A program made the position numbers and the translations under genes. The notes below the pieces were generated by a model. That model did not search any database. It was not told the DNA's origin and worked only from the letters and a program-made list of their open reading frames with translations. From Methanofollis aquaemaris (GTDB lineage: Archaea > Halobacteriota > Methanomicrobia > Methanomicrobiales > Methanofollaceae), in contig NZ_CP036172.1 in NCBI RefSeq assembly GCF_017357525.1, positions 1,648,561 to 1,712,560 of the forward strand: a stretch of 64,000 nt of DNA. Reading direction: 5' to 3'. Positions 17,012-25,243 of the stretch are shown piece by piece. Numbering within the stretch: position 1 is the stretch's first letter; each line of letters opens with the position of its first letter.

Positions 17012-17559
17012 TTCATATGACTGTGCAGGAGATCAGGATTGGAGCACAACGGATCGGCGCCCTCATCGGAAAACGGGGAGCCATAAAGAGAAAGATCGAA
17101 GAGAATACCGGGAGTGCCATCAGGATCGACAGCGGCGAGGGCGACGTCTTCATCGAGGGTGAAGACGCTTTCGGAGTGCTGCGGGCCGCCGACGTGGTCA
17201 CCGCGATTGCACGCGGGTTCTCCCCTGAACGGGCCTTCCGCCTCTTCGAGGACGAGGACATGACCATCGAAGTCATCGATCTCTCCGAGATCGATCCCTC
17301 GCCCAAACAGCAGGAACGCCTGCGGGGAAGGATCATCGGTAAGGCCGGGAAAGGCCGCCAGCAGATCGAGGACATGACCAAGGTCGAGATCTCGGTACAG
17401 GGGAAGACGGTGGCCCTCATCGGCATGCCCGAGAAACTCAGAAACGCGCGCACTGCCATCGAGATGTTGATCAACGGTGCCCAGCACGAGACCGTCTTCT
17501 CCTTCCTTGAGAAGAAGCGGCGTGAGGAGCGCGAGGACATCCTGGGATACTACTACTGA
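17008..17559 (+). CDS. KH-domain RNA-binding protein, Pno1/Dim2-like
   Basis: 183 residues from a GTG that overlaps the rio1 stop (GTGA); an ATG at 17017 is an alternative. Two KH domains are seen: the first with IGALIGKRGAIKRKIEENTG (about 12-31) and the second with RGRIIGKAGKGRQQIEDMT (about 107-125), each containing a GxxG loop. This arrangement matches the archaeal homologue of eukaryotic Pno1/Dim2, which binds near the 3' end of 16S rRNA during small-subunit assembly. Coupling to rio1 supports that role. It also matches the family's usual length (about 180). Confidence 0.92.
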   Translation: MIHMTVQEIRIGAQRIGALIGKRGAIKRKIEENTGSAIRIDSGEGDVFIEGEDAFGVLRAADVVTAIARGFSPERAFRLFEDEDMTIEVIDLSEIDPSPKQQERLRGRIIGKAGKGRQQIEDMTKVEISVQGKTVALIGMPEKLRNARTAIEMLINGAQHETVFSFLEKKRREEREDILGYYY

Positions 17560-17634
17560 CCAGGATAATTGCTGGTGGAGAGAGATATACAATTTTCTCT
17601 ATATTTCTTTAGATCTGGAAACATATGACAAAGA

Positions 17635-17656
17635 GTGGAGTGGAAACAAAGGGGTC
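17635..17656 (+). promoter_or_regulatory. ORB-like element in the hel308 leader
   Basis: GTGGAGTGGAAACAAAGGGG followed by TC matches the archaeal origin recognition box core (TCCAxTGGAAACAAAGGGGT), as in the two copies upstream of cdc6. It lies 3 bases before the hel308 start and about 30 bases after a TATA-like CTATATTT (17599-17606), that is in the probable leader. No origin-like repeats accompany it. Confidence 0.7.
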
Positions 17657-17659
17657 TAT

Positions 17660-19852
17660 ATGAAGGTGATCGACCTCCCCATCCCAGAACCTCTCAAAAA
17701 ATCGTACACCGTGAGAGGTATCGAGGCCCTCTACCCCCCGCAGGATGAGGCCGTCAGGAGTGGTATATTCGAAGGGAAAAATCTCCTTTGCGCCATCCCC
17801 ACCGCCAGTGGGAAGACTATCGTCGCGGAGATGGCAATGCACCGGCAGGTGGCCGAGGGGGGCAAGTGTCTGTACATCGTCCCGCTCAGGGCGCTCGCCA
17901 CTGAGAAGTACGAAGACTTTTCAGGGAAAGGCCTCTCGGTCGGAGTGGCGACCGGAGACCTGGACCGGCGGGACGCCTACCTGGGCAGAAACGACATCGT
18001 CGTCGCGACCTCCGAAAAAGTCGACTCATTGCTCAGGAACAAGGCTCAATGGCTCGCTGAAATCACCCTGGTGGTCGTGGACGAGTGCCACCTCATCGGT
18101 TCAGAGGACCGAGGGGCGACCCTCGAGATGGTGATCGCCAAACTCAGACACAATAATCCTCAGATACAGGTGATCGCCCTCTCGGCGACGGTCGGAAATC
18201 CGGGAGCGCTTGCCGGTTGGCTGGACGCGGAACTGGTGACCAGTGAGTGGCGCCCCGTCGATCTGCGCGAAGGGGTCTACTGGCAGGGGCAGATCCACTT
18301 CGATAACCATACCCGCAAGATCCCAGCGGGCTCGAAGGACGATGATCTTAACCTCTGTCTGGACACTATTGCCGAGGGTGGGCAGTGCCTGGTCTTCGTA
18401 AACAGCAGACGAAACGCCGAGGCCTTTGCAAAAAGGGCCGCATCAAAATTGAAACTCTCCGAAACCACCCTTGAGTCGGCTGCAGACCGGATCGATCGGG
18501 GGGCATCGACTGAACTGGGCCGAACACTCGCAAGGTGCGTGAAAGGAGGGGCGGCCTTCCATCATGCAGGTCTTGCAGCGGCCGAGCGCCACGAAGTGGA
18601 GGACGGGTTCAGGAAGGGAGCGATCAAGGTCATCTCCTCGACCCCAACTCTGGCCGCAGGCCTGAACCTCCCTGCCAGACGGGTGATCGTGCGCGACTAC
18701 CTCAGGTTCAGCCAGGGGGGGATGGTCAGGATCCCGGTTGGCGAATACAAACAGATGGCCGGACGGGCCGGACGGCCGCACCTCGATCCATATGGGGAGG
18801 CGGTGCTCATCGCCAAACGGGAGAACGACCGTGAAGGTCTCTTCGAAACCTACATCGAAGCGCCGCCTGAAGAAGTCCACTCGCAGTGCAATGCCGAGAA
18901 CGCCCTCCGCTCCCATATCCTCTCATTGATCACCACCGGATTTGCAAGGAGCCGGACCGACGTGCTCGCCTTTATGGAGACAACCTTCTATGCCTACGAG
19001 CACCAGGGTCGCCGTTCCACCATCCAGGAGACCGTCGAACGGGTCGTCGACGACCTGGTCGCGGCCGAGATGATCGACGAACTCGATGGATGGCTCGAAG
19101 GGACCAAGTACGGGAATCTCGTCTCCAGACTATACATCGACCCGAGAACCGCCGAGGCGATCGTCGATGGACTCAGACAGCGGCCCCCATACGCCGATGT
19201 CGGGGTGCTCGAACTCCTCTGCGAGACCCCGGACATGCTCACCCTCTTCCTGCGCAAGGACGACTACGAGTTTGTTGACCGCTTCCTCGCGGAGCGCCGC
19301 GACGAACTCTGGACCGGCGTGCCGTACGGCTACGATGACCTCGAAGGTTTCTTCCAGAGTGTCAAGACCACCATGCTCCTCCTTAACTGGGCTGAGGAGG
19401 TGACCGACGAGATGATCTGCGAACGCTTCAATGTGGGACCAGGCGACATCCACAACAAGGTCGAGACGGCGGTCTGGCTCATCCATGCGACCTCGCGCCT
19501 CGCCCACCTCTTCTCGCCAGAACTCGAAGAACCGATCGCCGAACTGGAGATCAGGGTAAAACACGGGATCAAACGCGAACTCCTCCCGCTGATCAAACTG
19601 CGCGGGATCGGGCGGGTGCGGGCGAGAAGGCTCTTCAACGCGGGGCTTACCACTCCCGAAGACCTCAAGGCCGCCGGCGTCAGGAAACTCAGCCCTGTCC
19701 TCGGCGAGAAGATCGCGGCCAGGGTCGTCGCTCAGGCGGGCGGCAAGGTGGAAGAAATTCCCGACGCGGAGACAGTCGATGAACCTATCCCTGAAACTCC
19801 AGTCGAACACCAGACTTCTTTGAGTGCATTCGGAGGAACCGAGAATGAATAA
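17660..19852 (+). CDS. hel308: Hel308-type ATP-dependent DNA helicase
   Basis: 730 residues from the ATG at 17660; the frame is open further upstream but overlaps the previous gene. Superfamily 2 motifs in order: Q-motif region LYPPQDEAV, Walker A AIPTASGKT (about 49-57), DECH box VVVDECHLIG (about 137-146), motif III LSATVGNP, motif IV-like CLVFVNSRR, and motif VI QMAGRAGRP (about 364-372). The C-terminus holds the winged-helix/ratchet domains and a helix-hairpin-helix region (LRGIGRVRARRLFNAG). Hel308 unwinds lagging-strand DNA at stalled forks. The 3' end overlaps cgi121 by 8 bases. An ORB-like site sits in its leader. Confidence 0.93.
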   Translation: MKVIDLPIPEPLKKSYTVRGIEALYPPQDEAVRSGIFEGKNLLCAIPTASGKTIVAEMAMHRQVAEGGKCLYIVPLRALATEKYEDFSGKGLSVGVATGDLDRRDAYLGRNDIVVATSEKVDSLLRNKAQWLAEITLVVVDECHLIGSEDRGATLEMVIAKLRHNNPQIQVIALSATVGNPGALAGWLDAELVTSEWRPVDLREGVYWQGQIHFDNHTRKIPAGSKDDDLNLCLDTIAEGGQCLVFVNSRRNAEAFAKRAASKLKLSETTLESAADRIDRGASTELGRTLARCVKGGAAFHHAGLAAAERHEVEDGFRKGAIKVISSTPTLAAGLNLPARRVIVRDYLRFSQGGMVRIPVGEYKQMAGRAGRPHLDPYGEAVLIAKRENDREGLFETYIEAPPEEVHSQCNAENALRSHILSLITTGFARSRTDVLAFMETTFYAYEHQGRRSTIQETVERVVDDLVAAEMIDELDGWLEGTKYGNLVSRLYIDPRTAEAIVDGLRQRPPYADVGVLELLCETPDMLTLFLRKDDYEFVDRFLAERRDELWTGVPYGYDDLEGFFQSVKTTMLLLNWAEEVTDEMICERFNVGPGDIHNKVETAVWLIHATSRLAHLFSPELEEPIAELEIRVKHGIKRELLPLIKLRGIGRVRARRLFNAGLTTPEDLKAAGVRKLSPVLGEKIAARVVAQAGGKVEEIPDAETVDEPIPETPVEHQTSLSAFGGTENE

Positions 19853-20351
19853 GTGCGAGGTGAGGGAGGCGATCATCGAGGTGGACTCGCTGCCGGCCTT
19901 CCTGAAGGCGATGGCCAGGATCGCAGAGGCGCACCAGACCCATATCATCTGCTTTGACGCAGATGAGATGGCCGGACGCGGTCATGCCGAGAAGGCGGTC
20001 GACCATGCGGTGCGCTCATGGCGAGAAGAGCGGGCGATCTCCAGGTCTCTGGAGATGGAGGCCCTGCTCTATGCCGCAGGTACCCGACAGTGCCGGATCG
20101 GAACAGAAATCGGGCTTCACGAGGGTACGAACCGTTCCTATGTCTGCCTCTGCCCCCCCTCCCCGGCGGCCGCCGAGGCTCTTGCCGGTCTGGTCGACTG
20201 GACCGATGAGGACTGGGAGGAGATCGACCCCGCCAGGCAACAACGGTTGATGGACCGCTTCGGGATCACGGAGGAGGAACTCGAGGCCGCAGGCGGGCGG
20301 ATCAGACCCCTCGTCTATGAACGGGTGGCCCTTCTTGAGATAAACCGGTAG
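19845..20351 (+). CDS. cgi121: KEOPS complex subunit Cgi121
   Basis: 168 residues. The start ATG at 19845 lies inside the end of hel308 and follows a good ribosome binding site (GGAGGA at 19831-19836). The Cgi121/TPRKB pattern is visible: HTHIICFDADEMAGRGHAEKAVDHAVRSW, RSLEMEALLYAAGTRQCRIGTEIGLHEGTNRSYVCLCP, and a C-terminal DRFGITEEELEAAGG. KEOPS makes the universal t6A modification of tRNA; Cgi121 contacts Bud32 and the tRNA. The pairing with hel308 is a recurring arrangement in methanogens as far as I recall. Confidence 0.88.
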   Translation: MNKCEVREAIIEVDSLPAFLKAMARIAEAHQTHIICFDADEMAGRGHAEKAVDHAVRSWREERAISRSLEMEALLYAAGTRQCRIGTEIGLHEGTNRSYVCLCPPSPAAAEALAGLVDWTDEDWEEIDPARQQRLMDRFGITEEELEAAGGRIRPLVYERVALLEINR

Positions 20352-21137: not shown

Positions 21138-21168
21138 GAACCCCCACCCCTTCATTTCCACTGGAACA
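21138..21168 (-). promoter_or_regulatory. Origin recognition box (ORB), minus orientation
   Basis: Read on the minus strand this is TTCCAGTGGAAATGAAGGGG followed by TGGGGGTTC. It matches the ORB core and extends into the G-rich tail (GGGGTGGGGGT) also found in the copy at 22014-22040, pointing the other way. Orc1/Cdc6 contacts both the core and the G-string in studied archaea. Confidence 0.78.
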
Positions 21169-21488
21169 AGTGAAAGGAAGAGAGAAGAGAAAAGGAGAGA
21201 TAATGCACTCCTCTGCCTCCGGATCCCCTCCCGTACCCTCTGATGTTTTTACCGAATATCCCCGCACTTAAACAGATAAAACCTGCTTTACTCCCTTAAA
21301 TCCAGAATGGAGATCACCTGAGATCATCCTCATGATCTCTCCTGTACCCTCATTTTGTGCTCTCCGGATCAGTGCGATCGAGGAGGAAAAGGAGGGATCA
21401 AAAGAGGAGGAGGAGAGGATCAAAGGAGGATCAGACAGGATCAAAGAGAGATCAAAACCTGATCTGAGATTCTGGATCCAGGATCCGC

Positions 21489-21755
21489 GATCCCCTGATC
21501 AGAAATTCAGGATCAGAGATCCGCGATCCAGGAAGGGGTGATCTCGATCATGTCTGATCCGAGATCTCCGATCCCCTGATCAGGAATTCAGGATCAGAGA
21601 TCCACGATCCAGAGAGGGGATGATCTCGATCACGTCTGATCCGAGATCTCTGATCCCCTGATCAGGAATTCAGGATCAGAGATCCGCGATCCAGAGGGGA
21701 GATGATCTCGATCACGTCTGATCTGAGATCTCCGATCCCCTGATCAGGGATCTCC
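21489..21755 (+). repeat. About 82-bp tandem direct repeats, GATC-dense
   Basis: The string GATCCCCTGATCAG recurs at 21489, 21570, 21652 and 21734, giving periods of 81, 82 and 82 bases. Each unit also contains AATTCAGGATCAGAGATCC and GATGATCTCGATCACGTCTG in nearly the same form. Beyond 21755 the pattern continues in scrambled form. Hand counting gives about 55 GATC sites in 21367-21934, one per 10 bases, far above chance. Confidence 0.9.
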
Positions 21756-21984
21756 AATCCTTATGATCAGGAATTCAGGATCAGAGGAGAGCTGATCCAG
21801 ACTGGACTGGATCTGAAATCTCTGATCATCAGGATCATCGATGAGGGATCCGCGATCAGATCTCGCGCCGATCACGGATCATAGATCAAGTCTCGGTCAG
21901 ATCGACGTGATCTCTGATCTCTGATCAGATCGGATATATAGTACAAGTCGCGAACCATACAACAAGCTGTTTTTCACTGTTTAA

Positions 21985-22013: not shown

Positions 22014-22040
22014 ACTCCACTCGAAACAAAGGGGTGGGGG
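22014..22040 (+). promoter_or_regulatory. Origin recognition box (ORB), plus orientation, extended
   Basis: ACTCCACTCGAAACAAAGGG continuing GTGGGGGTG matches the ORB core and the G-rich tail. It pairs in opposite orientation with the copy at 21138-21168 across the GATC-dense repeats. Confidence 0.8.
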
Positions 22041-22094: not shown

Positions 22095-22130
22095 TTTATA
22101 TAGTATCTCCAATGGAAACAAAGGGGTTAT
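22095..22130 (+). promoter_or_regulatory. cdc6 TATA box with overlapping downstream ORB
   Basis: ATTTATATAG at 22095-22104 is a TATA-like box. Starting 4 bases later, CTCCAATGGAAACAAAGGGG TT (22108-22129) is a near-perfect ORB, covering the position where transcription would start (about 25 bases after the TATA box). Binding of Cdc6 here would be expected to repress its own gene. Confidence 0.72.
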
Positions 22131-22184: not shown

Positions 22185-23468
22185 ATGTCTGAAAACGATG
22201 ATCAACCCCTTGGTCTTTTCCAGAAATTCCTTAGTAACAACCGTATCTTCAAGAACCGGGAGGTGCTCAGGCACTCGTACCGACCGCAGATCCTCCCTCA
22301 TCGGCGACCCCAGATCGATGCCATCGCTTCTATTCTTGCACCCGCTATCAAGGATGAGACTCCTTCGAACATTCTCATCTATGGGAAGACGGGGACCGGC
22401 AAAACTGCGTGCGTCCGGTATGTCGGGAGTGAACTAGAGAAGGTGGGCGCCGGGGTGGGGACCGGGTGTCGCGTGGTTCATCTCAACTGTGAGGTGATCG
22501 ACACCCAGTACCGGGTGCTCGCTCAGATTGCCAAGAGCCTTGAGGACCTGGATGCCACCCCGAGTGATCGCGCGCGCGCTCACATTCCGATGACCGGGTG
22601 GCCGACCGACCAGGTGTACACCGAACTCAAGAACCAGCTTGAAGCAACTGGTGGAGTGCTTGTCATTGTCCTCGACGAGATCGATAAACTTGTCAAGAAA
22701 AGTGGGGACGAGACCCTCTACAACCTCACCAGGATCAACGCAGACCTTCAGGGTGCGAAGGTCTCGATAATCGGGATCTCCAATGACCTCAGGTTCACCG
22801 ACTTCCTCGACCCCCGTGTCCTCTCCTCCCTTTCCGAGGAAGAGATCGTTTTCCCCCCATATAATGCCCCGCAACTCTGTGATATCCTTGCACAACGCGC
22901 CGAGATGGCCTTCGTTGAAGGAAGCCTCGAAGAGGGTGTGATCCCGCTCTGCGCAGCCTTCGCCGCGCAGGAACACGGCGACGCGCGGCGCGCCCTTGAC
23001 CTCCTCCGGGTCTCAGGCGAACTCGCGGACCGCGAGAACGCCGAACAGGCAAAGGAGAAGCATGTGCGCATGGCCCTCGATAAGATCGAGACCGACTCGA
23101 TGATCGAGTGTATCTCGACCCTTCCCACCCAGAGCAAGGTCGTGTTGTATTCGATGCTTCTCCTCGAGGAGATGGACAAGAAGATCTTCACTTCCGGTGA
23201 GGTGACCAGGGTCTATCGGGAGGTCTCGCGCATTGTGAACATCGACCCCCTCACCCACCGGCGGATCACCGACCTCATCTCTGAATTAAACATGCTCGGG
23301 GTGATCAACACCCGCGTCGTTTCGAAAGGACGATATGGGAGGACAAAAGAGATGTGGTTTGACAGCAACACGAAGAAAATACAGGAAGTCCTCGCGAAGG
23401 ATCCGAGGCTTTCTGAGGAACGTCTCGCCCAGGTTGACCTCAACCGCCTGAAGGCATCGTTTCGGTGA
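22185..23468 (+). CDS. cdc6: Orc1/Cdc6 replication initiator
   Basis: 427 residues, usual for archaeal Orc1/Cdc6. AAA+ motifs: Walker A IYGKTGTGKTA (about 66-76), Walker B VLVIVLDEIDKL (about 158-169), sensor 1 IIGISNDLRF (about 191-200), sensor 2 GDARRALDLLR (about 265-275). The C-terminal winged helix follows (about 300-410) with the wing region SKGRYGRTKEM. It binds ORBs, loads the MCM helicase and starts replication. The clustering of ORBs just upstream supports an Orc1-1-type role. The Lrp gene follows within 6 bases of the stop. Confidence 0.96.
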   Translation: MSENDDQPLGLFQKFLSNNRIFKNREVLRHSYRPQILPHRRPQIDAIASILAPAIKDETPSNILIYGKTGTGKTACVRYVGSELEKVGAGVGTGCRVVHLNCEVIDTQYRVLAQIAKSLEDLDATPSDRARAHIPMTGWPTDQVYTELKNQLEATGGVLVIVLDEIDKLVKKSGDETLYNLTRINADLQGAKVSIIGISNDLRFTDFLDPRVLSSLSEEEIVFPPYNAPQLCDILAQRAEMAFVEGSLEEGVIPLCAAFAAQEHGDARRALDLLRVSGELADRENAEQAKEKHVRMALDKIETDSMIECISTLPTQSKVVLYSMLLLEEMDKKIFTSGEVTRVYREVSRIVNIDPLTHRRITDLISELNMLGVINTRVVSKGRYGRTKEMWFDSNTKKIQEVLAKDPRLSEERLAQVDLNRLKASFR

Positions 23469-25218: not shown

Positions 25219-25243
25219 GAACCCCTTTGTTTCCACTGGAGAT
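25219..25243 (-). promoter_or_regulatory. ORB-like element, minus orientation
   Basis: On the minus strand the sequence is CTCCAGTGGAAACAAAGGGG followed by TTC, the best match to the ORB consensus in the window. It is intergenic, 81 bases after the aminotransferase stop and 3 kb from the main cluster, pointing toward it. A T-run (25153-25158) just before it could end the aminotransferase transcript. Confidence 0.75.

Follow-up and report, generated by a model that had tools for sequence, protein, structure and literature searches.

A conserved half-ORB in the leader of hel308 is a putative Orc1/Cdc6 operator in an order of methanogens

The hel308 gene of Methanofollis aquaemaris is preceded by a single ORB core that, on comparative evidence, is very probably a cis-regulatory site for the replication initiator Orc1. 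The best explanation of the data as a whole, which we regard as likely, is an Orc1/Cdc6 operator in the form of a half-ORB that sits in the hel308 leader and probably represses the gene. This putative operator is most likely an old shared feature of Methanomicrobiales, the methanogen order to which the species belongs. The window, meaning the whole stretch of 64,000 nucleotides that was analyzed, spans 1648561-1712560 of the one contig that makes up the genome (2,746,416 bases); its features and related coordinates elsewhere are collected in Table 1.

Table 1. Features of the hel308-orc1 region and related sites (window positions unless another reference is given)
Feature	Position	Strand	Remarks
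KH-domain protein gene (arCOG04150)	17017..17559	+	constant upstream neighbor of hel308
TATA-like box CTATATTT	17599..17606	+	predicted hel308 promoter element; aligned in genus
Left dyad arm position	17635..17639	+	reads gtgga, not the ORB arm ttcca/ctcca
ORB core GTGGAAACAAAGGGGT (right dyad half + G-string)	17640..17655	+	4 nt 5' of hel308 ATG
hel308 (Ski2-type DNA helicase)	17660..19852	+	NCBIfam PRK02362 above cut-off; helicase_Hel308 model below cut-off
cgi121 (KEOPS subunit)	19848..20351	+	overlaps hel308 end
Origin ORB	21146..21161	-	17-mer match at 21145
Origin ORB, CTCGAAAC variant	22020..22035	+	17-mer match at 22020
Origin ORB	22112..22127	+	17-mer match at 22112; 57 bases before orc1 start codon
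orc1/cdc6 (main replication initiator)	22185..23468	+
Origin ORB	25221..25236	-	17-mer match at 25220; same 16-mer core as hel308 site
Orc1/Cdc6 paralogue L183	1173927-1175018 of genome contig
Orc1/Cdc6 paralogue L184	2276324-2277385 of genome contig
Isolated ORBs, genus g4	L102:1046, L103:1001, L105:970, L106:959
Isolated ORBs, genus g4	L104:1992, L107:2009	-

The core in front of hel308 is separated from the start codon by the tetranucleotide ctat and is identical, as a 16-mer, to the core of one of the ORBs at the nearby orc1 origin. A preliminary description had placed it 3 bases before the hel308 start; the site is real, and the distance is 3 only when counted from 17656, the gap from the core itself being 4 nt. 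Like an ORB, the site carries the right dyad half GGAAA and the G-string GGGGT in register. Since the left dyad arm YTCCA is replaced by a sequence that is not ORB-like, we refer to the site as a half-ORB plus G-string. Nor does it have the arrangement of an origin element, in which clustered or paired ORBs flank an AT-rich unwinding region: it stands alone in the leader with the nearest ORB 3.5 kb away, isolated from the origin repeats just as the preliminary description had stated. What it does share with initiator-controlled promoters, such as those of DnaA, is an initiator box whose position relative to a nearby gene start is fixed and which is conserved along with that gene.

The motif is rare in both the window and the genome. 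When up to 3 mismatches were allowed, the 17-mer matched 5 sites in the window compared to 0.21 expected, a number reached in 0 of 100 shuffles, and the 4 sites other than that at hel308 surround orc1 (Table 1). Across the whole genome, 4 sites come within 1 mismatch of GTGGAAAYNAAGGGGT, and all of them fall in one 7.6 kb stretch of this region, so the concern that the motif might occur at many random loci did not materialize. At 2 mismatches, 6 extra sites appeared, 1 at the origin and 5 elsewhere, the latter being about the control level (6 matches in all for the reversed pattern). The pattern GTGGAAACNNNGGGGT, with at most 1 mismatch, had 7 genome sites, 4 of them in the hel308-orc1 region. 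Among the weaker ORB-like sites elsewhere in the genome, those at 787053 and 1794917 have flanks in common and so resemble copies of a single repeat more than they do ORBs.

The Orc1 protein encoded in the window has as its nearest solved structures Sulfolobus Cdc6-1 (2qby_A) and 2v1u_A, the latter being the Aeropyrum protein on ORB DNA, and it is related to these ORB-binding proteins. Two further Orc1/Cdc6 paralogues are encoded in the genome, but they were set aside as candidate binders because each is only 27% identical to the window Orc1 while the motif equals that of the main origin. Between an origin ORB and orc1 lie GATC-rich tandem repeats (21458-21771), the largest of which has a period of 82, 3.2 copies and a 93% match (21488-21748). 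At the other end of the region, the overlap between hel308 and cgi121 suggests that the two genes are probably co-transcribed.

Of 98 genomes of the order, from six families, 88 have a matching core in front of hel308 (53/61 in the first set, 16/17 new genomes of family f2 and 19/20 new genomes of genus g16), so the preliminary description's worry that the site might not be conserved in front of hel308 in other species was not borne out. Sites were scored over the right half and G-string with a matrix built from 96 ORB sites (82 distinct) away from hel308, and this matrix was used for all three sets. Hel308 was located in 61/61 genomes of the first set, and the comparison drew on the hel308 region of 59 relatives; the gene of G033, present in the Hel308 search only as a fragment at a contig edge, had its region added later, and since it lacks the site the first set counts 53/61 genomes. 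Scores of at least 5 were obtained for 53/60 hel308 leaders compared to 23/2269 random 150-bp windows, and scores of at least 18 for 39/60 leaders compared to 0/2269 random windows, with windows close to strong ORBs omitted from this null. The f2 count leaves out G187, which gave no Hel308 match, and with its earlier members genus g16 reaches 24/25 genomes. Start codons were taken from tblastn alignments, so that in a few genomes the true start may lie some codons away; in three f2 genomes (L238-L240) the site lies 64-76 nt before the assumed start.

The site is absent in part of family f3 (G013, G018, G028, G033 and G043) as well as in G025, G045, G050, one f2 genome (L220) and one g16 genome (L203), and leaders L073, L086 and L091 hold only weak versions of the core. 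Within the window's genus, an alignment of 9 genomes shows that the flanks have diverged while the core has been kept. Outside the order, no ORB was detected in 60 hel308 leaders from 55 genomes of 16 families, these 55 being drawn from the 96 genomes with a hit among 101 outside the order (120 genomes of the phylum in total). The sole outgroup score above 5 (5.1, L156) corresponded to the gene's own start, ATGGAAC.., with no G-string, and the next best sense score was -1.2. Since outgroup leaders lack the ORB, the hel308-leader site is probably a novelty of this methanogen order.

ORBs are bound with polarity by Orc1 monomers, according to the available text of two reports (PMC7776575, PMC12141716). 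In the 60-locus set, the core was oriented sense to hel308, with the G-string towards the gene, in 53/53 sites, and two of the 60 loci carried an additional weak antisense match. In 34/53 sites exactly 4 nt separate the core from the first in-frame start codon, with genus g16 following a rule of its own (22-23 nt). This near-fixed 4-nt gap exceeds the need of a DNA operator and hints at a second role, for example in translation. GGGGT could pair with the 16S rRNA tail, and the G-string could on that account be a ribosome-binding site with the remainder of the motif being leader sequence. Although this pairing and the 4-nt gap would suit such a translation signal, we consider it very improbable, since it leaves both the conserved GTGGAAA half and the identity with origin ORBs unexplained and does not accommodate the longer gap of genus g16. 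Moreover, at distances of 1, 4 and 7 nt before other open frames GGGGT occurs 27, 20 and 14 times, respectively, with no clear peak at 4 nt, and a Shine-Dalgarno reading of the motif was found insufficient.

The left arm distinguishes hel308 sites from origin sites. Its CC was present in 14/53 hel308 sites compared to 134/137 origin and other strong sites, a comparison with unequal thresholds (scores from 5 for hel308 sites and from 15 for the others); among hel308 sites scoring at least 15, counted by hand, the proportion was 11/42. The arm reads TTCGA or GTGGA in the window's genus and mostly TTGCA in genus g4, the exception being genus g16, where every hel308 site found has a full left arm.

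The hel308 gene lies ~3.7-8.2 kb from orc1 in most genomes with both in one region, and this proximity, together with the ORB-rich titration regions of haloarchaea (in the portion of PMC3936714 available), would be compatible with a site that serves the chromosome, either as an outlying origin element or by titrating Orc1. We regard a chromosomal role as improbable because the site is single rather than clustered, because its left arm is degenerate whereas origin ORBs keep theirs, and because its orientation and place are fixed to hel308 even where the gene lies on the opposite strand or 10.8-42.9 kb away. The site is kept in sense to hel308 in G002 and G004 (10.8 kb from orc1 in both), G009 (22.7 kb), G057 (31.2 kb) and G042 (42.9 kb), with scores of 29.7, 29.7, 29.7, 11.9 and 19.3, respectively, and in the last three genomes hel308 and orc1 are on opposite strands. 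G045 (26.6 kb, opposite strand) has only a degenerate trace with a score of -1.3 and was counted as absent. In 60/60 loci the KH gene is the same-strand upstream neighbor of hel308, which indicates that the hel308 block moved together and that the site was retained afterwards.

The same evidence bears on the suggestion in the preliminary description that the site is a remnant of a wider ORB set. As an account of its present state this finds no support, because a remnant would not keep a fixed place and orientation relative to a gene; a wider ORB set may nevertheless be the source from which the site arose, given how close hel308 is to orc1 in most genomes. The weak leaders and the part of family f3 without a core would fit a chance likeness or a decaying remnant, but the retention of the site across the order and of the core amid diverged flanks leaves this explanation with hardly any credence: chance is refuted, and a remnant is contradicted by the fixed orientation and position.

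The motif is likewise no general mark of start codons near the origin, a possibility rejected after inspection of eight neighboring genes, which had 0-2 cores each except for orc1. No core was found in the leaders of GAPDH, tyrS, rio1, the KH gene, the aminotransferase or the 23465 ORF (0/37 to 0/60 each), and cgi121 leaders had one in 2/55. The orc1 leaders carried a sense core in 23/39 within 120 nt and in none within 40 nt, an arrangement that would allow autoregulation of orc1 through its leader ORB.

How Orc1 might act on hel308 can be gauged from the predicted promoter. The TATA-like sequence CTATATTT is conserved in the window's genus (alignment of 9 of its 12 genomes), and the usual archaeal TATA-to-start spacing predicts a transcription start near 17630, which would put the core, ~35 bases downstream of the box, at roughly +10 to +25. 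Proteins bound at such a place usually block transcription. Given this location, past the predicted transcription start but ahead of the start codon, bound Orc1 would most probably impede transcription, and we put repression at slightly better than an even chance. Alternatively, Orc1 could activate hel308 or time its transcription to fork passage or the initiator cycle; the position of the site relative to the transcription start is itself only a prediction, and other initiators, such as DnaA, act both ways (as far as the available text of PMC8203912 goes). However, the location of the core downstream of the TATA-like box speaks against activation, which we consider unlikely.

In the favored explanation, a repressing operator, Orc1 would recognize the right dyad half and G-string in the hel308 leader as it does at the origin, and bound Orc1 would hinder transcription initiation or promoter escape. 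Expression of hel308 would be kept down as long as the cell has ample free, active Orc1, and it would go up once the initiator has been consumed, degraded or inactivated. The preliminary description's proposal that hel308 may be responsive to Cdc6 is well supported by comparative genomics (conservation, orientation, position, relocation, outgroups and neighbors), while we infer Orc1 binding, the direction of control and the physiological signal from these patterns. A more ambitious scheme, which we view as doubtful, is that Orc1, the main replication initiator, commands a dedicated regulon consisting of little more than a single repair gene, that the deliberately weakened half-ORB reads the free Orc1 pool, and that failing or exhausted initiation would raise Hel308 and shift the cell to fork restart and recombination-dependent replication.

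Stalled forks and D-loops are sites of Hel308 action (available text of PMC7776575). In Sulfolobus treated with hydroxyurea, the portion of PMC5134839 available describes an association of Hel308 with origins that increases up to 22-fold and a Hel308 protein level that is unaltered, with Orc1-1 and Orc1-3 behaving otherwise. These data point to a functional link of Hel308 at origins; the unchanged amount of Hel308 means that they lend no support to an expression switch in that lineage, which is a different one from ours.

Origin cores vary in genus g16 (CTCGAAA, CTCGCAA and CTGGAAA/GTGGAAA). The origin ORBs of L076, L078, L080 and L081 have shifted from GTGGAAA to CTCGAAA or CTCGCAA, so the word that the initiator recognizes differs inside a single order. 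The core class in front of hel308 was also present at the genome's own origin in 14/20 g16 genomes, including joint shifts to CTCGAAA and CTCGCAA, and six genomes disagreed (G036, G046, G056, G166, G169 and G178). Classes were assigned by hand, and the comparison left out G163, G174, G175 and G180, in which no origin site was found, G177, which had none at hel308, and the one-mismatch sites judged off-origin in G031, G162, G165, G170 and G178. Because the permutation value of 0.049 ignores kinship, and with a lenient count in which any origin core of the same class sufficed, we take the covariation of hel308 and origin cores in g16 as suggestive only.

Six g4 genomes carry a second isolated ORB, TCTCCAGTGGAAATCAAGGGGTTTG, with a full left arm, away from both the origin and hel308 (Table 1); the stretch is conserved and continues with GAGATTCTCTCGATC in the alignment. 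It may mark a further promoter under Orc1 control or act as a titration site. Earlier listings already include isolated ORBs distant from orc1, for example downstream of ftsZ in Methanomassiliicoccales (available text of PMC4153887), and ORBs within the Thermococcales DP1 gene are mentioned in the accessible part of PMC2643942.

If the proposed operator is real, it would connect the replication initiator of archaea directly with fork repair, through the initiator's own origin word rather than a specialized paralogue. It would offer a one-site, one-gene system for asking whether archaeal Orc1 initiators also regulate transcription, and it would bear on the archaeal balance of origin-dependent versus recombination-dependent replication. 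It also cautions that, in this order, predicting origins from ORBs can pick up a site that is not part of an origin. In the literature searched, which covered few subscription papers and some sources in part, we found no paper describing an ORB ahead of hel308.

The hel308 half-ORB is a variation on the known theme of the initiator as transcription regulator. It resembles the archaeal ORB bound by Orc1/Cdc6 in its right half GTGGAAAC and G-string AAAGGGGT, which are identical to those of an origin site in its own genome, but it differs from an origin ORB in standing alone outside the origin, in being linked to a start codon and in lacking the left dyad arm in most genomes. Judging from the available portion of PMC9738581, the Sulfolobales Orc1-2 DNA-damage regulon likewise places an Orc1-family protein at promoters, as we propose here; however, Orc1-2 is a non-initiator paralogue that acts through ANTTTC in many promoters, whereas hel308 would be controlled through the initiator's own ORB and is the one evident target besides orc1. 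Regulation by DnaA, described for dnaA, uvrB and recN in the available text of PMC8203912, similarly relies on initiator boxes in promoters, including those of repair genes, but it is bacterial, has many targets and employs an unrelated binding domain and box. Finally, Haloarcula hispanica has an ORB-rich region downstream of oriC2-cdc6E whose ORBs likewise lie outside the origin proper and affect initiator availability (available text of PMC3936714), but that region is a cluster next to cdc6E, in contrast with the one oriented site that precedes a repair gene here.
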